Source: Luteitalea pratensis (lineage in GTDB: Bacteria > Acidobacteriota > Vicinamibacteria > Vicinamibacterales > Vicinamibacteraceae). From it: a DNA stretch of 64,000 nt. Shown in pieces: positions 2,352 to 62,229 of the stretch (position 1 is the first letter of the stretch; every line of letters begins with the position of its first letter). Location of the stretch: NCBI RefSeq assembly GCF_001618865.1, contig NZ_CP015136.1, positions 2,329,001 through 2,393,000 of the forward strand. Reading direction: 5' to 3'. The notes beneath the pieces were generated by a model. It saw only the letters and a list, made by a program, of their open reading frames with translations, did no database searches and was not told the DNA's origin. The position numbers and the translations under genes were made by a program.

Positions 2352-3376
2352 CGGGGTTGCCGAAGCGTTGGCGCGGATCACAGCCGTCGACGAGCGTCGA
2401 CGATCGGGCACAGCAGGCATACCCGGGCATGCGCGGCCGCGGCGCGATCCGCGAGTCGACGGGACTCGTCCTCGTGCTGGTACTGCTGGTCGCGCTGTTC
2501 AGCGTCACCAGCGAGCACTTCCTGTCGCGGGTCACGTTCACGACGCTCGCCAATCAGTTGCCGGCACTCGCCGTGATTGTGGTCGGCATGACGCTCGTGC
2601 TGATCGCGGGCGGCATCGATCTCTCGGTCGGGTCGGTGATGGCTCTTGGTGCCGCCGTCCTCGGCGTGACGTTGACGCGCTGGCAATGGCCGGTGCCGCT
2701 GGCGCTCTCGGCGTGTGTCGGCGTCGGCGTACTGGCCGGCCTCGTCAACGGCCTGATCACCGTGCGTTGGTCGATCCCATCGTTCATCGTGACGCTCGGC
2801 ATGCTGGAGATCGCGCGCGGCGGCGCCTACGTGGCCACCGATTCCCGATCCGTCTTCGTGGGGAGCGCGCTCGACGGCGTCGGTGCACCGCTGCCTGTTC
2901 TCGGCGTCTCGCCCGCGTTCCTCGTCGCGGCACTGCTGGTCGTCGCCGGGGAGGTGTTGCTCACACGCACCGTGTTCGGCCGGTATCTCGTGGCGATCGG
3001 CACCAACCGTGAAGCTGTGCGGCTCTCGGGCATCGCGCCAGCACCGGTCGAGGTCGCGGTGTTCACGTTGTCGGGCGCCCTTGCGGGCCTGGCCGGCATC
3101 TTCCACGTGGCGTACCTCGAGTCGGTCGACCCCAACGCCGGTATCGGACTCGAGCTGTCGGCGATTGCCGCAGTCGTGATCGGCGGCACGAGCCTCATGG
3201 GCGGCCGCGGATCGGTCGTCGCGAGCTTCGTCGGCGTGCTGATCATCGTGGTCCTGCAGGCGGGACTGGCCCAGATCGGCGCCACCGAACCCACCAAGCG
3301 CATCGTGACGGGGCTGGTCATCATCACGGCCGTGATCGTCGATGCATGGCGCCGACGGTGGCAAAAGAACCGATGA
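2348..3376 (+). CDS. Sugar ABC transporter permease (RbsC type)
   Basis: Membrane permease of the ribose-type importer, 342 residues with about eight to ten hydrophobic segments. The family stretch VVGMTLVLIAGGIDLSVGSV is clear, as is GTNREAVRLSGI in the cytoplasmic loop that contacts the ATPase. The start is taken as the GTG at 2348, which overlaps the TGA of the ATPase gene; the frame stays open further upstream but only as a shadow of that gene. A 7-bp repeat array begins inside the stop codon of this gene. Confidence 0.9.
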   Translation: MTGLPKRWRGSQPSTSVDDRAQQAYPGMRGRGAIRESTGLVLVLVLLVALFSVTSEHFLSRVTFTTLANQLPALAVIVVGMTLVLIAGGIDLSVGSVMALGAAVLGVTLTRWQWPVPLALSACVGVGVLAGLVNGLITVRWSIPSFIVTLGMLEIARGGAYVATDSRSVFVGSALDGVGAPLPVLGVSPAFLVAALLVVAGEVLLTRTVFGRYLVAIGTNREAVRLSGIAPAPVEVAVFTLSGALAGLAGIFHVAYLESVDPNAGIGLELSAIAAVVIGGTSLMGGRGSVVASFVGVLIIVVLQAGLAQIGATEPTKRIVTGLVIITAVIVDAWRRRWQKNR

Positions 3377-3444
3377 ACGCTGAACGCCGAACGCTGAACG
3401 CCGAAGGGAGTCGGGAGTCGGGAGTGGGGATCGGGAATCGCCGA
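3375..3444. repeat. 7-bp tandem repeat array
   Basis: Ten consecutive heptamers in one register: GAACGCT/GAACGCC alternate four times, then GAAGGGA, GTCGGGA twice, GTGGGGA, TCGGGAA and TCGCCGA. The array begins within the TGA of the permease gene (3374-3376). Nearly the same series recurs at 3698. The whole stretch 3377-4046 holds no convincing gene apart from repeats and the leader of the next gene. Confidence 0.85.
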
Positions 3445-3490
3445 CGGCAGCATCGGGCCGTCCCGGCCTGGCGTCGTTGCCAAGTCAAGC

Positions 3491-3514
3491 GTCGACCTTA
3501 AGGTCGATGCCTAC
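3491..3514 (-). repeat. REP-like hairpin with GTAG head
   Basis: GTCGACCTTAAGGTCGAT is a near-perfect palindrome followed by GCCTAC. Read on the minus strand it is GTAG plus a hairpin, the layout of REP elements. A sibling with the same core lies at 11647. Confidence 0.6.
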
Positions 3515-3615
3515 GTACCGCAGGGCCGAGCGTCGCCGTCGCCCTTCCAGCTTCGCTGAGGCTACGGCGGACAAGTCAGGTCGACGGGGGCCAGCGCGGT
3601 GCAAAAAGACCCGGC

Positions 3616-3657
3616 CAACGCTGAACGCCGAACGCTGACCGCCGAACGCCAGTCGCC
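3616..3657. repeat. 7-bp tandem repeat array
   Basis: Six heptamers of the GAACGCT/GAACGCC family (CAACGCT, GAACGCC, GAACGCT, GACCGCC, GAACGCC, AGTCGCC), running directly into the REP-like element at 3660. Confidence 0.75.
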
Positions 3658-3659
3658 GC

Positions 3660-3683
3660 GTCGACCTGAAGGTCGACGCCTAC
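3660..3683 (-). repeat. REP-like hairpin with GTAG head
   Basis: GTCGACCTGAAGGTCGAC is a palindrome with one mismatch at its centre, followed by GCCTAC. On the minus strand this reads GTAG then hairpin. Confidence 0.6.
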
Positions 3684-3697
3684 CGGGCAGATTCGAC

Positions 3698-3753
3698 GAA
3701 CGCTGAACGCCGAACGCTGAACGCCGAAGGGAGTCGGGAGTCGGGAGCCGGGA
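3698..3753. repeat. 7-bp tandem repeat array, near copy of the array at 3375
   Basis: Eight heptamers: GAACGCT, GAACGCC, GAACGCT, GAACGCC, GAAGGGA, GTCGGGA, GTCGGGA, GCCGGGA. This is almost the same order of units as the array at 3375, which points to duplication of the array or repeated conversion. Confidence 0.8.
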
Positions 3754-9662: not shown

Positions 9663-9673
9663 GCCTGGGACGT

Positions 9674-9715
9674 CAGGTCTCAAGTCTCAAGTCTCAGGTC
9701 TCAGGTCTCAGGTGA
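9674..9715. repeat. 7-bp array, CAGGTCT/CAAGTCT family
   Basis: Six heptamers (CAGGTCT, CAAGTCT, CAAGTCT, CAGGTCT, CAGGTCT, CAGGTGA). The interval 9625-9934 between two genes contains only repeats and hairpins. Confidence 0.8.
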
Positions 9716-11218: not shown

Positions 11219-11247
11219 GTATGGTCCTCGTTGACGATTGACGGTCC

Positions 11248-11303
11248 CAGGTGTGAAGTCCCAGGTCTCAGGTCTCAGGTCTCAGGTTCCAAGTCTCAGG
11301 CAC
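11248..11303. repeat. 7-bp array, CAGGTCT family
   Basis: Eight heptamers (CAGGTGT, GAAGTCC, CAGGTCT three times, CAGGTTC, CAAGTCT, CAGGCAC) upstream of the sugar isomerase-like gene. The whole of 11219-11882 is non-coding repeat mosaic apart from the nuclease promoter. Confidence 0.8.
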
Positions 11304-11490
11304 GATCTCCGCCGACGCCGACTTGTCCGCCGGAGCCTTGGCGAAGGCGGAACGCCGAACGCTCAGGCAGGGCCAGGCAATCCAGAGTCCCGATCCAGTA
11401 CCCGGTTGCCCGGTGCCCGGTGCCGATACCTCTAGACCCGGCTACTACTACGCCCGACCGCGACAAACTGTATCGTGGGCCTCATGGGTC

Positions 11491-11574
11491 ATGCCTGAGA
11501 CCTGAGACCTGATGCCTCACCCTCAGGTCTCACGCCTCAGGTCTCAAGTCTCAAGTCTCAGGTCTCAGGCTGAC
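11491..11574. repeat. 7-bp array with inverted halves
   Basis: Twelve heptamers in one register: ATGCCTG, AGACCTG twice, ATGCCTC, ACCCTCA, then GGTCTCA/CGCCTCA/AGTCTCA units and GGCTGAC. The early AGACCTG units are the reverse complement of the later CAGGTCT series, so the array could fold back on itself. Confidence 0.8.
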
Positions 11575-19180: not shown

Positions 19181-19285
19181 TAAGCCGTAAGCCGCAGGCC
19201 ATAAGCCGTAAGCCCTAGGCCGTAGGCGGTACGCCGCAGGCTGCAGCCGCGAAGCGTTAGGCGTTAAGCGTTAGGCATTAATTAA
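19181..19285. repeat. 7-bp array that changes sequence in register
   Basis: Fifteen heptamers: TAAGCCG twice, CAGGCCA, TAAGCCG, TAAGCCC, TAGGCCG, TAGGCGG, TACGCCG, CAGGCTG, CAGCCGC, GAAGCGT, TAGGCGT, TAAGCGT, TAGGCAT, TAATTAA. It ends just before the stop codon at 19289. Confidence 0.85.
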
Positions 19286-19666: not shown

Positions 19667-19893
19667 CGTATGTGACTCCTGCTGTGCCTTGGGGATGAGG
19701 ACGCCGGCGCAGCGTTGGCGTTCTGCAGGGGAATACGCCCGCCCTATCGGCCTCGTTCCTCGTTCATGACACGCGGCGCAAGTCTTCACGGCGATGGCAA
19801 GAAGCTGCGACAACTCGGCTCAGATCGAGGGTTGGCGCCACAAAATCGCAACATCTACGGGTACGCCTCGCTCAGTGGGATGCACCACTGGGA

Positions 19894-19998
19894 TCGGGAG
19901 TCGGGAACCGGGAGTGGGAACCGGGAACCGGGAATCGGGAATCGGGAACCGGGAACCGGGAAATCGGGAATTGGGGATCGCGGATCGGGATCGGGGAT
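19894..19998. repeat. 7-bp array, TCGGGAA/CCGGGAA family
   Basis: About fifteen units of TCGGGAA, CCGGGAA and variants, with one 6-bp and one 8-bp unit that shift the phase. The interval 19667-20049 holds no gene that I can support. Confidence 0.8.
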
Positions 19999-28354: not shown

Positions 28355-28389
28355 GAACGCTGAACGCTGAACGCTTAACGCTTAACGCC
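28355..28389. repeat. 7-bp array, GAACGCT family
   Basis: Five heptamers: GAACGCT three times, TAACGCT, TAACGCC. Confidence 0.75.
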
Positions 28390-28447
28390 TTCACACGGTG
28401 CCCGACGTGTACCCGGAACCCGGCACCCGGGGGCATTAAGGCCCGAC

Positions 28448-28475
28448 GAACGCCGAACGCCGAACGCCGAACGCC
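28448..28475. repeat. 7-bp array, GAACGCC family
   Basis: Four identical GAACGCC heptamers. Confidence 0.75.
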
Positions 28476-28523
28476 GTATCGAGCTTTACACGGTGCCCGG
28501 TATCCGAAAACTTGTGCCCGGCT

Positions 28524-28579
28524 GTACCCGGAACCCGGAACCCGGAACCCGGTACCCGGTACCCGGTACCCGGTACCCG
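28524..28579. repeat. 7-bp array, GTACCCG/GAACCCG
   Basis: Eight heptamers: GTACCCG, GAACCCG three times, GTACCCG four times. It ends 24 bases before the kinase start codon, overlapping where a promoter -35 region would be. Confidence 0.85.
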
Positions 28580-28603
28580 GTGTTCCTCCATACTGGGGCG
28601 GAA

Positions 28604-30238: not shown

Positions 30239-30287
30239 CTAACGCCTAACGCTTAACGCCTAACGCTGAACGCTGAACGCCGACCGT
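30239..30287. repeat. 7-bp array, CTAACGC/TGAACGC
   Basis: Seven heptamers: CTAACGC twice, TTAACGC, CTAACGC, TGAACGC twice, CGACCGT. The interval 30221-30742 has no gene; it holds arrays, REP-like hairpins and a terminator stem. Confidence 0.75.
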
Positions 30288-30303
30288 TCCCGCCGAGGGC
30301 ACA

Positions 30304-30345
30304 CGTCTCAGGTCTCAAGTCTCAGGTCTCAAATCTCAAGTCTCA
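30304..30345. repeat. 7-bp array, GGTCTCA/AGTCTCA
   Basis: Six heptamers: CGTCTCA, GGTCTCA, AGTCTCA, GGTCTCA, AATCTCA, AGTCTCA. Confidence 0.75.
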
Positions 30346-30478
30346 GGCAGGGCCCGAACCTCGTACGCGAGGAACGAACGTCGAACAAGGCCCGGCGAGG
30401 ACAGGCGCGACAAACGCTGAACGCCACCGCCGGCATCGTTCGGCGACTCCAGACTCCCGACTCCCCGCGCTGGCGTCC

Positions 30479-31642: not shown

Positions 31643-31775
31643 CTCTCAAGTCTCAAGTCTCAAGTCTCAAGTCTCAGGTCTCAGGTCTCAGGTCTGGCCT
31701 GAGACCTGCAGCCTGCCGCCTCCAGCTTCCAGCTTCCAGCTTCCGGCTTCCGGCTTCCGGCTTCCGGCTTACATA
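31643..31775. repeat. Nineteen-unit 7-bp array changing sequence in register
   Basis: Nineteen consecutive heptamers without a phase break: CTCTCAA, GTCTCAA three times, GTCTCAG three times, GTCTGGC, CTGAGAC, CTGCAGC, CTGCCGC, CTCCAGC, TTCCAGC twice, TTCCGGC four times, TTACATA. It lies directly upstream of the dienelactone hydrolase gene. The interval 31634-32016 has no gene. Confidence 0.9.
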
Positions 31776-31824
31776 TACGGCGTTCGATACGCCGGCGTTT
31801 ATCGCGTGGCCCTGCACGCGGCGA

Positions 31825-31847
31825 GTGTCGAGCAAGCTCGACACCTA
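31825..31847 (-). repeat. REP-like hairpin with GTAG head
   Basis: GTGTCGAGC-A-AGCTCGACAC-type stem followed by CTAC; same core as the elements at 49576 and 49717. Confidence 0.6.
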
Positions 31848-31861
31848 CGTGTTTGCCGGGC

Positions 31862-31889
31862 GACTCCCGACTCCCGACTCCCGACCCGT
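31862..31889. repeat. 7-bp array, GACTCCC
   Basis: Three GACTCCC heptamers and GACCCGT. A second short run, GACGTTC/GGCGTTC/AACGTTC/GGCGATT, follows near 31900-31927. Confidence 0.65.
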
Positions 31890-31952
31890 GTCGGCGTGCG
31901 ACGTTCGGCGTTCAACGTTCGGCGATTGCCGGTGCACGGTGCCCGACCGTCT

Positions 31953-32015
31953 GGCGTCAGGCGTCAGACGTGAGGCATCAGGCATCAGGCATGAGGCATG
32001 AGGCATGAGGCATTC
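31953..32015. repeat. 7-bp array abutting a stop codon
   Basis: Nine heptamers: GGCGTCA twice, GACGTGA, GGCATCA twice, GGCATGA three times, GGCATTC. It ends one base before the stop codon at 32017. Confidence 0.85.
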
Positions 32016-33303: not shown

Positions 33304-33433
33304 GTAGGTAGCCGTATTCTCGCCCGAACGGGAGGCGTTTTGCGGCGTCGACCGTCAGACGTGACGCCCGGGCGTAGGACGACGGCGTGACGTCGCCGCA
33401 AACGCGATCCCGGCGATGGTCCTGACCAATGAA

Positions 33434-33503
33434 GCGTCAAGCGTCAAGCGTCAAGCATCAAGCATCAAGCATCAAGCATCAGGCATGAGGCATGAGGCAT
33501 GAC
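33434..33503. repeat. Ten-unit 7-bp array
   Basis: GCGTCAA three times, GCATCAA three times, GCATCAG, GCATGAG twice, GCATGAC, all in one register. It is related to the array at 31953. Confidence 0.88.
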
Positions 33504-33531
33504 GGGTATTTCCCTGCCGGGCACGTCACCG

Positions 33532-33537
33532 TACAGT
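33532..33537 (+). promoter_or_regulatory. Putative -10 box of a leaderless gene
   Basis: TACAGT ends 6 nt before GTG 33544, and no Shine-Dalgarno sequence is seen. A weak TTTCCC lies 17 bp upstream. Confidence 0.4.
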
Positions 33538-33543
33538 AGAGAT

Positions 33544-35228
33544 GTGCCGTACCCGACCGTGCTCACGTTGCTCCTGTTCGTCACGCCGCCTGCGGCGTTC
33601 CAGCTTCCGCCCAATTCCACCGCCAATCCCGACGTGGCCGCCACGGTGGCGCAGATTCTCGGTGGCGCCCAGCACCCGGGGCTGACCCATGGGGCCCTCG
33701 AGGACGTGACGCGGGACCTGTGGCCGCTCTACGACGCTGAACCCGATCGCCTGTTCTGGTTCGATCGCGGGGCGCCGTTGCCTTCGGTCGAGGGCGCGGT
33801 GCTGGCCGTCAACAACGTGCAGGAGTTCGGCCTCGCCCCCGCCGATTACGACGCCGCTGCGCTACAGGTCCAGTGGGCCGCACTCAAGGCCGGGCGCGCG
33901 ACGATGGTGGAGCGTGCGCAGTTCGACCTGGCGCTCAGCATCGCCAGTGTGCGGCTGGTGCGCGCGGTGTACGTCGGCCGTGTCGATCCCGCGCGGGTGC
34001 GCTGGAAGTACGACGGGCCACGCAAGACGCTCGACGCCAGCGCGCTGCTGCAGGACTCCCGCGCGGGCCGCGGGCTGGGCGACGTGCTCCGGAGCCTCGA
34101 ACCGACCGTGCCCCATTACGTGCGCGCACGTAATGGGGCACGCTTGCGACCTACCGCACGCTCGCCGCGGCAGGCGAACCCGAGCCGGTGCCGGCACTGC
34201 CGGCCGGCCAGAAGAAGGTCGTTCCCGGGCAGGCGTGGACGGGCGTCCCGCAACTGGTCGCACGTCTCCGTGCCGTGGGCGACCTCGTGGTCGATGTGCA
34301 CGAGACCCACACCCACTACACCGGCGGCATCGTCGAGGCGGTCAAGCGGTTCCAGGTGAGGCACGGACTCGAGGCCGACGGCGTGATCGGCGCTGGCACG
34401 ATCCGGGCGATCAACGTTCCGCTCGCGGGTCGCGTGCGCCAGATCGAGTTGGCGATGGAGCGCATGCGCTGGCTGCCGAAGCTGGGCGAGGGCCAGAACA
34501 TCTTCGTCAACGTTGCCAACTTCAGGCTGTGGGCCAACGACCCGCGCACGCGCGACGAGCCGCTGCGGATGAACGTGGTGGTGGGGCAATCGCTCGATCA
34601 CCAGACGCCGCTGTTCGTCGAACAACTCGAGTACATCGTCTTCCGGCCGTTCTGGAACCCGCCGCGCCGGATCCTGGTGGACGAGATCCTGCCGAAGGCG
34701 CGTCGCGATCCGGGCTACCTCGCGCGCAACCAGTACGAGATCGTGGCCAGCGGGGCCGATACGGCACCGGCCCTCGCGCCGTCGCCCGACAATATCGACA
34801 AGGTGCAGCAGGGGCGTCTCACACTGCGGCAACGGCCGGGGCCCAGCAACTCGCTGGGGCTTGCGAAGTTCATCTTCCCGAACGACGAGGACGTCTACAT
34901 GCACGGCACGCCGTCGCGCGGCGGCTTTGCGAAGGCGAGACGGGATCTGAGCCACGGCTGCGTGCGCCTCGAGGACCCGGCGGCGCTGGCGACCTGGGCC
35001 CTGCGCGACCAGCCGGAGTGGACCCGTGCGCGCATCGACGAGGCGATGAACGGCGACACGCCCGTGCGGGTGACGCTCCGCCGGCCGATGACGGTCGTGC
35101 TCTTCTACGACACGGTCCACGTGAGCCGGCAGGGTGTCGTCTACTTCATGGACGACATCTACGGCCACGACCAACTGCTCGATGCGGCGCTGAAGCAGGG
35201 CTATCCGTATCCGGTCCAGTCCCGGTAG
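33544..35228 (+). pseudogene. L,D-transpeptidase (YcbB type), frameshifted at a perfect palindrome
   Basis: Murein L,D-transpeptidase of about 560 residues if the frame is restored. GTG 33544 opens a signal peptide (PYPTVLTLLLFVTPPAAF), then the YcbB-type N-terminal domain (LYDAEPDRLFWFDRG, NNVQEFGLAPADYDAAAL) up to LEPTVPHYVR. The next frame carries LATYRTLAAAG, a peptidoglycan-binding domain (AVKRFQVRHGLEADGVIG) and the YkuD domain with HGTPSRG and SHGCVRLEDP, whose His and Cys are intact. The change of frame falls in a perfect 34-bp palindrome at 34108-34141, and the downstream frame has a TAA inside it. The enzyme would form 3-3 crosslinks in peptidoglycan. Confidence 0.85.
34108..34141. 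repeat. Perfect 34-bp palindrome inside the L,D-transpeptidase gene
   Basis: The arms GTGCCCCATTACGTGCG and CGCACGTAATGGGGCAC are exact reverse complements with no spacer. It sits precisely where the reading frame changes. Confidence 0.95.
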
Positions 35229-35344: not shown

Positions 35345-35878
35345 GTGGACCGCCGCCATTTCCTCCGCGCCGTCGCGACAGCTGTGCCCGTCCTGGCGTT
35401 CCCGGGCCTGGCCTCCGGCACGCCCGTGACGGTGGGCCCGCGGGTGTTGACGTTCGCGCACCTGCACACCGCCGAGAAACTCGAGGTGGAGTACATGGAC
35501 GGCGTGCGGTACCTGCCGCAGGCCCTCTCGGCGGTCAACCACCTGTTGCGCGATTTCCGCACCGGTGACGTGCACGACATCGACCCCGCCCTCCTCGACC
35601 TGCTGCACGCGCTGCATGCGTCAACGGGGAGCCGGCGGCCCTTCGAGATTATCTCCGGCTACCGATCGCCACTCACCAACGCGATGCTGCGCAGTCACGG
35701 CGGCGGCGTCGCGTCGGGCAGCCTCCACATGGAGGGAAAAGCGATCGACATCCGCCTCGCCGACGTGCCGCTGGAGTCGCTGCGCGATGCAGCGCTCGAC
35801 CTCCGTCGCGGCGGCGTCGGCTACTACGCGGCATCGAACTTCGTCCACGTCGACACCGGCCGCGTCCGTCGCTGGTAG
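35345..35878 (+). CDS. DUF882/M15-family peptidase (MepK/YcbK-like), exported
   Basis: Exported protein of 177 residues with a twin-arginine-like leader (MDRRHFLRAVATAVPVLAFP). The catalytic domain has the family zinc motifs: ISGYRSPLTNAMLRS, SGSLHMEGKAIDIRLA (His and Asp ligands) and NFVHVDTGRVR (final His). YcbK/MepK of E. coli is a murein endopeptidase that cleaves the L,D-crosslinks made by transpeptidases. It lies 116 bp after the L,D-transpeptidase gene on the same strand, so the pair would make and cut 3-3 crosslinks. Confidence 0.88.
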   Translation: MDRRHFLRAVATAVPVLAFPGLASGTPVTVGPRVLTFAHLHTAEKLEVEYMDGVRYLPQALSAVNHLLRDFRTGDVHDIDPALLDLLHALHASTGSRRPFEIISGYRSPLTNAMLRSHGGGVASGSLHMEGKAIDIRLADVPLESLRDAALDLRRGGVGYYAASNFVHVDTGRVRRW

Positions 35879-38323: not shown

Positions 38324-38405
38324 GATAGCAGCGTCGGGCCGCGTTCGGAGAACGGGCCCTACCGCAACCGGCTACCGCCAACGGATCGGACCGCCTGCAG
38401 CAGTG

Positions 38406-38432
38406 GTAGGGCCGGCTCTCTGAGCCCGGCCC
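38406..38432 (+). repeat. REP-like hairpin with GTAG head
   Basis: GTAG then GGCCGGCTCTCTGAGCCCGGCCC; near copy of the element at 9725. Confidence 0.65.
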
Positions 38433-38528: not shown

Positions 38529-38605
38529 CGGGGCGTAGCTCAGCCTGGTAGAGCGCTCGCTTTGGGAGCGAGAAGTCGCAGGTTCGAATCCTGTCGCCCC
38601 GACCA
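38529..38605 (+). tRNA. tRNA-Pro (anticodon TGG)
   Basis: Complete 77-nt tRNA with encoded CCA. Acceptor stem CGGGGCG pairs with CGCCCCG; D-arm GTAGCTCAGCCTGGTAGAGC; anticodon arm CTCGC-TTTGGGA-GCGAG with anticodon TGG; T-arm GCAGGTTCGAATCCTGT. Two partial copies of its 3' end follow in tandem. Confidence 0.95.
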
Positions 38606-38796
38606 TCCTCGCCCTGCTCGTCCGGTCGGAGTGTCAGCCTTCAGGCCCACGGCCCCGCCTTCGGCTCGCCGTCGGGCTCGAATCCTCCTCTCGCCCCGAC
38701 CATCCTCGCCCTGCTCGTCCGGTCGGAGTGTCAGCCTTCAGGCCCACGGCTCCGCCTTCGGCTCGCCGTCCGGCTCGAATCCTGTCGCCCCGACCA
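38582..38796 (+). repeat. Tandem repeats carrying the tRNA-Pro 3' end
   Basis: The tRNA 3' end (TCGAATCCT...TCGCCCCGACCA) plus about 70 bases of flank recurs. TCGCCCCGACCA ends at 38605, 38702 and 38796, so spacing is 97 and 94 bp. In both extra copies the T-arm reads GGCTCGAATCCT in place of GGTTCGAATCCT. The flank (TCCTCGCCCTGCTCGTCCGG...) is identical for over 40 bases between the first two copies. Confidence 0.92.
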
Positions 38797-38859
38797 CTCC
38801 TCGCGTGGCTCGTGTGGTCGTCACACGGGCCGCAGGGTTTCCGCGTACATCGCCGCTGG

Positions 38860-41589: not shown

Positions 41590-43724
41590 CCGTTGGGGGC
41601 GTCGACACTCGCGATGAGCCAGGTACCTCCTGTCCGCTGCAACGCGAACCGCCACCGGCCCTGCTGGATGCGCGTCGAGGAGTCGCCGACGCGCGGCCGG
41701 TAACGTCGCGTGCCAAGGCACGAGGCAATGGCACTGTCGCCGGTCACGGCGGTCGTGCACGACAACAGCGTCAGTCGCTGCTCACGCAATCCGGTGAACG
41801 TCTTGACCAGCGCCTGGCGGTCAGCCGACGGCCACACCGCCTTGGTGGCGCGGGCGTCCTGCCGGTTGTACGCGACGGCATAGCGCTGGATGGCGCCGAG
41901 TACGGCGGGCGCGGCCTGCGGTCGCGGCCGCGGTGCACTCGGCGTCACCGGCAGTCCGATGCCGGGAAACGTCTCGGCAGGAATCGTGACGGGGAACGGG
42001 GACACCGGCGCCTTCACGAGGCGGCTGGCCGGCACCATGCGCTGCAGCACCGTTGACGACCCGACGGCTCCGGTTTCCGCAGGCGCCGGGCGCGTCAGAT
42101 GCGGCGGAGATTCGGTGGCGGCGACATTTGCCGTGGCCGGCACTGGCGGTCCGCCGACGATGGCGAAGAGGACGCCCATCAGCATCCCGCCACCGACGAG
42201 GGCGAACCGCTCGACGGGTTCGACGCGGGATCGGGCCAGGGCAGCGCGCGCCGCAATGACCCAGGCACGCATGTGTGCCGCCGCCAGGTGCGGGCGTCCG
42301 GGGAAGGGCACCGCGTGTGTCTCGTCGAGCACCGGGATCTCCGGCGCGTCCATGGCCGGCTCCTCCGGGATCGCCCACGGCTCCGCGGCCGGCGGCCACT
42401 CGGATTCCGGCGTCGCCTCGATGAACTCCACGACCTGCGGCCACTCCCTGGTGAGCACCACTTCCCTGGCTTCCGGCTGCCCGGTGGCCCGCGGCAGTTC
42501 CACGATCGGTGGCAACGCGGCGACTTGCGGCACCTCGTGGGGCTCCGGCAACGCGTGCGCGGCAAGCAGCGCGTGGACGTCCGGCGGAGCCTGGAACACG
42601 TGCAGCACCGGTACGTCCAGGAACTCCAGGTTCTCCCGCAACTGCAGGGCCATCGCCATGTCGAGGACGTCCGGTGCCTGCAGCACCGGAGGCGGGTCCG
42701 GCACTTCGGCGTGTGCCGCCGCCTGTTGCGGGAGTTCCGGCAGTTCCGGCCACTGCGCCGCCTGCGGCGTGTCCTCCGCAGCCTCGAACTGCGGCACCGT
42801 CGGTACGTCCGCATGCTTGTGCTGCGGCAGGGCCGTGGCCACGTCGAGCAACTCCGCCGCCTGCAGCACCAGGGGCACGTCCGGCATGTCGGTCAGCGCC
42901 AGGACCGCCGCCAGCTCCGGAAGCGCCGCCAACTCCGGAATCTCCGAGAACTCCGGCAGCTCCGCCACATCCGGCGTGTCCTCCGCGGCCTCGACCTGTG
43001 GCACCACGGGTACGTCCACGGGCTCCGCGTTCTCACGCAGCGGTGGGGCCGTTGCCCCGTCGAGGCGTTCAGTCGCCTGCAGCACCAGCGGCACGTCCGG
43101 CATGTCGGTCAGCGCCAGGACCGCCGCCAGCTCCGGAAGCGCCGCCAACTCCGGAATCTCCGAGAACTCCGGCAGCTCCGCCACATCCGGCGTGTCCTCC
43201 GCGGCCTCGACCTGTGGCACCACCCCTAAGTCCGGGAGGTCGGGGGTTTCCCGCAACGGCAGGGCCGTGGCCGCATCCGGGAGCTCGGGCGTCTGAAGCA
43301 CCAGAGGCATGTCCGGCAGGTCGGTGTGGGTCACCGCCAGAAGCGTCGTCAGTTCCGGGAACTCCGGCGGCGCCGGCAACTCCGACAGCACTGGAAGCTC
43401 CGACAGCTCCGGAATCTCCGAGGACTCGATGGCTGGGAATGGTGATTCCGCGGCGTCGGGCCATTCGCCACTCGGCGGAGGCGTCAGCGCTTGGTCGGCG
43501 AACTGGATGCCAGGCGTGACCGCGGCGTCGGCAGGCTCGTCGAGATGCCGCCGCTTCATCAGCGCCTCGCGACAGTCCTGCGGTGCGGCGGCGGGTCGGT
43601 CGTCGACTCGCCAGAGCACCTGTCCGTCCTCCCCGTGCACGATCTCGATCACATCGAGATCCTGCAGGTCCGCGGCCGGGACAGGCCAACTGAGGTCCCG
43701 CCGCAACCGGGCCCGTGTCGTCAT
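41586..43724 (-). CDS. Repeat-rich single-pass membrane protein with C-terminal NTF2-like domain
   Basis: Protein of 712 residues that I cannot place in a known family. Residues 1-60 form a small charged head (LQDLDVIEIVHGEDGQVLWR). Residues about 100-400 are acidic, Pro/Leu/Glu-rich repeats of about 72 residues, such as TPDVAELPEFSEIPELAALP and LTDMPDVPLVLQ; two units are nearly identical. A Pro/Glu-rich spacer leads to one transmembrane helix (FALVGGGMLMGVLFAIVGG, about 512-530), a second linker, and a C-terminal NTF2/SnoaL-like domain (GAIQRYAVAYNRQDARATKA; WRFALQRTGGTWLIASVDA). The acidic repeats would be cytoplasmic and the NTF2-like domain periplasmic by the positive-inside rule (AARAALARSRVEP precedes the helix). 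Confidence 0.8.
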   Translation of the reverse strand: MTTRARLRRDLSWPVPAADLQDLDVIEIVHGEDGQVLWRVDDRPAAAPQDCREALMKRRHLDEPADAAVTPGIQFADQALTPPPSGEWPDAAESPFPAIESSEIPELSELPVLSELPAPPEFPELTTLLAVTHTDLPDMPLVLQTPELPDAATALPLRETPDLPDLGVVPQVEAAEDTPDVAELPEFSEIPELAALPELAAVLALTDMPDVPLVLQATERLDGATAPPLRENAEPVDVPVVPQVEAAEDTPDVAELPEFSEIPELAALPELAAVLALTDMPDVPLVLQAAELLDVATALPQHKHADVPTVPQFEAAEDTPQAAQWPELPELPQQAAAHAEVPDPPPVLQAPDVLDMAMALQLRENLEFLDVPVLHVFQAPPDVHALLAAHALPEPHEVPQVAALPPIVELPRATGQPEAREVVLTREWPQVVEFIEATPESEWPPAAEPWAIPEEPAMDAPEIPVLDETHAVPFPGRPHLAAAHMRAWVIAARAALARSRVEPVERFALVGGGMLMGVLFAIVGGPPVPATANVAATESPPHLTRPAPAETGAVGSSTVLQRMVPASRLVKAPVSPFPVTIPAETFPGIGLPVTPSAPRPRPQAAPAVLGAIQRYAVAYNRQDARATKAVWPSADRQALVKTFTGLREQRLTLLSCTTAVTGDSAIASCLGTRRYRPRVGDSSTRIQQGRWRFALQRTGGTWLIASVDAPNG
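42861..43225. repeat. 216-bp in-frame tandem duplication in the repeat-rich gene
   Basis: The segment beginning CTGCAGCACCAG recurs at 42861 and 43077, an exact offset of 216 bp (72 codons), and is almost identical for about 145 bases. Flanking copies at lower identity extend the array on both sides. Confidence 0.85.
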
Positions 43725-59891: not shown

Positions 59892-59899
59892 GGGAGAAA

Positions 59900-59997
59900 G
59901 GACGGAGGACGGAGGAGGGAGGACGGAGGAGGGAGGACGGAGGAGGGAAGATGGAGGTCTGAGGTCTCAGGTCTCAGGTCTTAGGCCTTAGGCCTCT
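59900..59997. repeat. Fourteen-unit 7-bp array that switches family in register
   Basis: GGACGGA twice, then GGAGGGA/GGACGGA alternating, AGATGGA, GGTCTGA, GGTCTCA twice, GGTCTTA, GGCCTTA, GGCCTCT. The GGACGGA family turns step by step into the GGTCTCA and GGCCTTA families with no phase break. Confidence 0.92.
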
Positions 59998-61518: not shown

Positions 61519-62229
61519 TCAAGACACTGGACGTGCCTGGGGTGTTCCGGCTGGCTTCTTCGCTGCGTCCTGTTTCTGCCCTTGTTCCTCCGTCCTCGCT
61601 CCTCCGTCCTCCGTCCTCACTCCTCCGTCCTCCTTCCTCTCTCCTCCGTCCTTCCCTGGGGCCTCCACCCACCGCAGGTTGCGGGTGAGGGGGTGGCGGA
61701 GATCGACGTGGCCGGCGAGGGTGTCCACTTCCTGGCCGTCGATGAGGATCTGCACGCTCTTGATCGCCGGCAGGTTGACGGTGATGGCGTTGACGATCGT
61801 GTACACGGCGAAGAGTTCGTCGAGGCTGCCGCCGCGGTGGTTGGTGACGGCTTCCTTGGACAGGTCCACGAAGGCGGTGCCGTCCTCGGCGATGAAGATC
61901 TGCCGCACACGGGTGCCTTCGGCGATGGACTGCGCCAGGGGCGCGGGAGCGGGCTGCAACTGCGCCTCCACGAGCGCGCGAGCCTGCTCGGCGGGCGTTG
62001 CCCCGAACGGCACGTCGGCATCGACGGCGGTGAGGTGGAGGCCGTCTTCGGCGACGTAGAACAGGCTGGCGCGGATCTTCCCGGTCGCCTCGCCGCTGGC
62101 GGCAGCGTCGGCGCGCGGCACTTCGACGGTGGCGGGCGCGAACCAGCGCGGCACCAGCACCACACCCACGATCCCGATCAACACGGCGGTCATCACGCCG
62201 AGCAGCGCGACGACGACCGGTCGGCGCAT
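61519..62229 (-). CDS. GerMN-domain membrane protein
   Basis: Protein of 236 residues with one N-terminal membrane helix (VVVALLGVMTAVLIGIVGVV) and a GerMN domain (about 70-185; HLTAVDADVPFGATPAEQAR, IFIAEDGTAFVDLSKEAV, IVNAITVNLPAIKSVQILID). GerMN is found in germination and sporulation proteins and as a partner of cell-wall amidases. The last 45 residues (EDGGVRTEDGGARTEEQGQK) are encoded by a 7-bp repeat array and have a 7-residue period. It follows the amidase gene in a TGATG junction. The order amidase-gerM-rph-rdgB is similar to the gerM-rph-rdgB order of Bacillus. Confidence 0.87.
   Translation of the reverse strand: MRRPVVVALLGVMTAVLIGIVGVVLVPRWFAPATVEVPRADAAASGEATGKIRASLFYVAEDGLHLTAVDADVPFGATPAEQARALVEAQLQPAPAPLAQSIAEGTRVRQIFIAEDGTAFVDLSKEAVTNHRGGSLDELFAVYTIVNAITVNLPAIKSVQILIDGQEVDTLAGHVDLRHPLTRNLRWVEAPGKDGGERKEDGGVRTEDGGARTEEQGQKQDAAKKPAGTPQARPVS
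61588..61657 (-). repeat. 7-bp array inside a coding region (C-terminal tail)
   Basis: Ten heptamers in register: CTCCGTC, CTCGCTC, CTCCGTC twice, CTCACTC, CTCCGTC, CTCCTTC, CTCTCTC, CTCCGTC, CTTCCCT. They are the reverse complement of the GGACGGA family next door. Confidence 0.9.

Follow-up and report, generated by a model that had tools for sequence, protein, structure and literature searches.

The locus examined here raises the question of why the reading frame of an L,D-transpeptidase gene changes within a perfect palindrome, and whether a single event might account for both. It lies in a window of 64,000 nucleotides, by which we mean the whole stretch of DNA analysed (positions 2,329,001-2,393,000 of the single contig of 7,480,314 bases that makes up the host genome), from Luteitalea pratensis, which we take to be the present name of strain HEG_-6_39.

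An exceptional palindrome in a broken transpeptidase gene

The 36 bp at 34107-34142, which as a palindrome are assigned to neither strand, equal their own reverse complement and consist of two 18-bp arms, CGTGCCCCATTACGTGCG and CGCACGTAATGGGGCACG, that meet with no spacer. A sequence-only reading had described a 34-bp palindrome at 34108-34141 with 17-bp arms; it was right that the repeat is perfect and spacerless, while the size is corrected here. In the part of the host genome used as background (1.864 Mb, or 25% of its length), spacerless palindromes with arms of 8, 9, 10, 11, 12 and 13 bp numbered 80, 29, 5, 2, 2 and 1, the counts for arms of 9-13 bp declining roughly as expected by chance. 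The palindrome at 34107-34142 is the single case with an arm of 18 bp, the runner-up having an arm of 13, and base composition alone predicts 8e-4 cases with arms of at least 18 bp in 7.48 Mb. It is thus exceptional in its genome. Folded as a hairpin, the site scores z = -4.4 for DNA and z = -5.3 for RNA, the latter with a very stable 16-bp stem in the mRNA. We rejected an intrinsic terminator, as there is no T run and no match, and also a structured RNA family, as there is no match in Rfam.

The gene interrupted at this point encodes an enzyme of the LdtD/YcbB family, whose members combine a Scaffold, a peptidoglycan-binding and a YkuD domain, the last with the catalytic motif SHGCxR. All three domains are present above the Pfam cut-offs, spread over two frames of the + strand, and YcbB enzymes are the best matches among solved relatives (PDB 6ntw, 7aj9; NCBIfam NF007891). 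The upstream part (33499-34107; its true start is uncertain and probably lies at about 33546) holds the N-terminus and the Scaffold domain (PF20142, 2.5e-20), and its frame crosses the palindrome out of register to reach a stop at 34359. The downstream part (34134-35228) holds the PG_binding_1 (7.7e-8) and YkuD (4e-21) domains with an intact SHGCVR motif, in a frame shifted by one position that is open from a TAA at 34131-34133, within the right arm, to 35228. The earlier claim that the frame changes at the palindrome was therefore well placed, the change lying inside 34107-34142. A working member of the family would be one open frame for a whole exported enzyme; the frameshift leaves the gene a broken copy instead, and the downstream half alone scores 199 bits against an equivalog cut-off of 425 (NF007891). 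No further stop or frameshift was found in the gene.

Loss of function is the most likely consequence, because the catalytic half is separated from the export signal and the scaffold domain. That the two parts still work as a split gene is far less probable: the catalytic part has no N-terminal export region, and no convincing ribosome-binding site, judged by eye, precedes any in-frame start open to it. The strain is thus predicted to be without its sole Scaffold-type L,D-transpeptidase, the only such enzyme encoded in the genome, and to be left with one other YkuD protein. The gene seems to be dispensable in this lineage, as neither a Scaffold-type nor any other YkuD protein was found in four other genomes, two from the genus and two from the family, some of which are assemblies in many pieces. 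Next to the broken gene, and adjoining an LdtD-type gene here, stands an intact mepK-like peptidoglycan L,D-endopeptidase gene (35345-35878, + strand; PF05951, with NCBIfam MepK above cut-off). One genus member, G003, keeps a mepK-like gene (locus L104, G003:C90:3010-3456), and no YkuD transpeptidase was found in its assembly of about 830 contigs; its MepK may have another substrate, or the assembly may be incomplete.

Comparison with relatives and the layout of the palindrome

Homologues at E up to 1e-40 were present in 29 of 100 related genomes, the window's own being counted. A search of genome contigs for sister loci returned only distant homologues in Bosea and Mesorhizobium. The two same-genus relatives G004 and G001, with 78% and 60% amino-acid identity, have uninterrupted genes of 561 and 587 aa, and the number of residues from a Pro position via a Tyr to a Leu position is constant in all 29 related loci that can be aligned across the site. 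In the DNA alignment with the three closest relatives, G004, G001 and G040, the host carries 5 nt that all of them lack, and the aligned region of these three contains no spacerless palindrome with arms of more than 5 bp. The situation that the sequence-only reading had named as contrary to it, in which relatives share the palindrome and yet keep an intact gene, is the reverse of what we observed: the relatives are intact, without the palindrome and shorter by 5 nt.

The Tyr of the left-arm segment is kept in register in the aligned relatives, and the additional 5 nt sit in the right arm. The left arm can be regarded as native, because it codes for V-P-H-Y-V-R where G004 has F-S-H-Y-V-R. Within it lies the block CCCCATTA (34111-34118, + strand), the putative source, which overlaps the codons of this conserved Tyr segment. 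The right arm contains the block TAATGGGG (34131-34138, + strand), which repeats CCCCATTA, 12 bases upstream of it, exactly in inverted form; the probability that a random 8-mer of the same composition would be the reverse complement of the source is 8.5e-6. This presumably templated block would replace about 3 ancestral nt, for a net gain of 5, with a boundary uncertain by about 1 nt. Between the two blocks lies a 12-bp inner palindrome, CGTGCGCGCACG (34119-34130, no strand), which encodes V-R-A-R as in G004 and may be both ancestral and the primer of the switch proposed below; its right half, coding for R-A-R as in G004, is probably old as well. In the closest relative compared, G004, the inner core differs and the imperfect repeat is absent, and it is from codon conservation that we infer an ancestral quasi-palindromic core. 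The outermost CACG (34139-34142, + strand) pairs with CGTG at 34107-34110, agrees with the relatives (GCC ACG CTG in G004) and marks the putative point at which synthesis resumed on the normal template.

Compared with the divergence from G004 the break is recent, because both halves are conserved, without acceleration and without a second stop or frameshift. Unique amino-acid changes in the host and in G004 number 35 against 35 with G001 as the outgroup and 38 against 32 with G040. In the codon comparison, for which the upstream and downstream pieces were trimmed before alignment, dN/dS to G004 is 0.27 for the upstream and 0.24 for the downstream part, next to 0.21 for the neighbouring intact mepK; changes in the trimmed upstream part number 20 against 9 with G040 as the outgroup and 18 against 16 with G001. 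The view that the event is recent and the remainder of both frames preserved is thereby supported, with conserved halves and no excess of amino-acid changes.

Proposed mechanism and alternative explanations

The added bases reproduce the opposite arm exactly in inverted form, and it is the target arm that has changed, the source arm being ancestral. We therefore consider it highly likely that a template switch at a quasi-palindrome, a Ripley-type mutation, left this palindrome as its scar and recently cost the strain the enzyme. The ancestral gene would have carried a short imperfect inverted repeat, with CGTGCG/CGCACG as its inner and CGTG/CACG as its outer parts, and with two unmatched stretches, CCCCATTA in the left half and about 3 nt in the right. 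During synthesis of the + strand, the nascent 3' end may have paired with its own strand through the inner repeat and been extended along CCCCATTA, giving TAATGGGG, after which the polymerase would have rejoined the normal template at CACG. In this way about 3 nt would have become 8, a net gain of 5, the repeat would have become a perfect 36-bp palindrome, and the same event would have shifted the frame and placed a stop in the downstream frame, all of which we infer to have happened in a single step. The earlier proposal that template switching had perfected a quasi-palindrome is supported, for an ancestor deduced from conserved codons, by the 5 nt gained over the relatives, the native left arm and the exact inverted 8-nt copy. 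An intramolecular switch requires that the + strand be the nascent one, and this is probably the leading strand, since dnaA lies at base 1 (PMC4882960) and the GC skew changes between 4.1 and 4.3 Mb, a weak signal that is slightly negative around the window. A mutator background was rejected: the exonuclease I C-terminal model had no match in three Luteitalea genomes, and it is also absent from most controls, of which only E. coli matches. The genes for ExoVII and SbcD are present, and there is thus no sign of abnormal DNA repair in this strain.

An error of the consensus or the library, with a gene that is truly intact, would explain why the remainder of the gene is as well preserved as if nothing were wrong in the cell, and libraries are generally known to yield short inverted copies as artefacts. 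PacBio errors, however, are mostly single-base indels and not templated replacements of 8 nt, and an artefact would have produced the sole palindrome of its size in 1.86 Mb. In addition, the assembly of HEG_-6_39 is based on about 98,000 PacBio P6 reads with a mean of 13.7 kb, resequenced to QV60, with Illumina pairs mapped for correction (PMC4882960). This published sequencing quality makes the assembly artefact, which the sequence-only reading had put forward as its own alternative, unlikely. A small but real chance is left to break-induced fold-back, in which a resected 3' end snaps back, copies itself and rejoins downstream via the microhomology CACG. It predicts the same inverted copy with short homologies at both junctions, and a single scar cannot tell fold-back repair from a polymerase switch. 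Yet it depends on both a break and end joining, while stalling is enough for a template switch during replication, and a transient switch better accounts for a return that falls at the aligned position and costs only about 3 nt.

Other readings assign a function or a foreign origin to the palindrome. It is very improbable that the palindrome serves as a contingency-type switch that comes and goes reversibly by template switching and thereby turns the transpeptidase off and on within the population. Even less credit can be given to a recoding element whose hairpin makes ribosomes change frame or hop to yield the full-length enzyme: the stability of the mRNA hairpin (16-bp stem, z = -5.25) and the apparent constraint on both halves are in its favour, but there is no slippery heptamer for the required -1 shift (the upstream frame reads ...CGT AAT GGG GCA CGC), the target frame contains a TAA within the right arm, the aligned relatives are continuous in frame without extra residues, Rfam offers no match, and recency accounts for the constraint. 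Programmed frameshifting was rejected on the absence of a slippery site and the stop in the target frame. The chance that a mobile or dispersed palindromic element of the REP or MITE type was inserted, or that a transposon left an excision footprint, is close to nil. Perfect dyads can be the ends of such elements, but this is a general resemblance, and the left arm consists of conserved coding sequence native to the gene, the extra nucleotides number just 5 with no target duplication, and the length of the site is invariant in the relatives. Since no second copy was found in the host genome and none in viral contigs, a dispersed repeat, a mobile element and a phage origin were all rejected.

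Relation to known systems

The template switch proposed here adds a well-supported example to a mutation class that is already known and does not constitute a new system. Quasi-palindrome mutations in E. coli are the subject of work by Ripley (1982), Viswanathan (2000) and the Lovett laboratory (PMC7202029, PMC6357072). In E. coli reporters such mutations perfect the repeat with one arm as the template, and under replication stress the leading strand is the more mutable one (PMC6357072, PMC7202029), which is probably also the strand concerned here. The lacZ QP5/QP6 reporters and natural hotspots likewise turn an imperfect repeat into a perfect one, changing several nucleotides at once and shifting the frame (PMC7202029, PMC6357072). 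In contrast to these systems, the present case is a natural event in an acidobacterium that breaks a gene by a net +5, from an ancestor that is deduced; its unmatched block is larger (8 against about 3 nt) and its final palindrome longer (36 bp). Template switches recognized by ancestral reconstruction likewise involve a single event that yields a perfect hairpin by copying neighbouring sequence as its reverse complement (Monttinen and Loytynoja 2022, PMC8794818), although those lie in RNA genes, where the stem is selectable, whereas the hairpin described here breaks a protein gene.

The locus preserves, in a bacterium living wild in soil, a clear natural trace of a mutation process that has mostly been studied in E. 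coli and yeast reporters. It illustrates how a gene can be broken and a perfect hairpin formed by one and the same copying error, and that clusters of multi-base differences are not to be taken as independent mutations.

Other repeats in the window

The window also holds more than 12 tandem arrays that share a 7-bp period, in many cases together with one of 14 or 21, and have differing units, among them AAGCATC, TCAGGTC, GAACGCT, TCCGGCT and GTACCCG, which is an odd combination. Arrays of this period lie at 3374-3728, 9673-9713, 11243-11569, 19181-19281, 19893-19997, 28355-28581, 30239-30347, 31644-32013, 33432-33502, 59899-59996 and 61586-61657; several are intergenic, and one lies directly upstream of the transpeptidase gene. 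In addition, a 97-bp unit is repeated 2.3 times at 38584-38804, with an imperfect 28-bp inverted repeat nearby (38336-38432), and a 216-bp unit is repeated 2.3 times at 42830-43325 (86% matches); it contains 18-bp repeats and may be a coding repeat.
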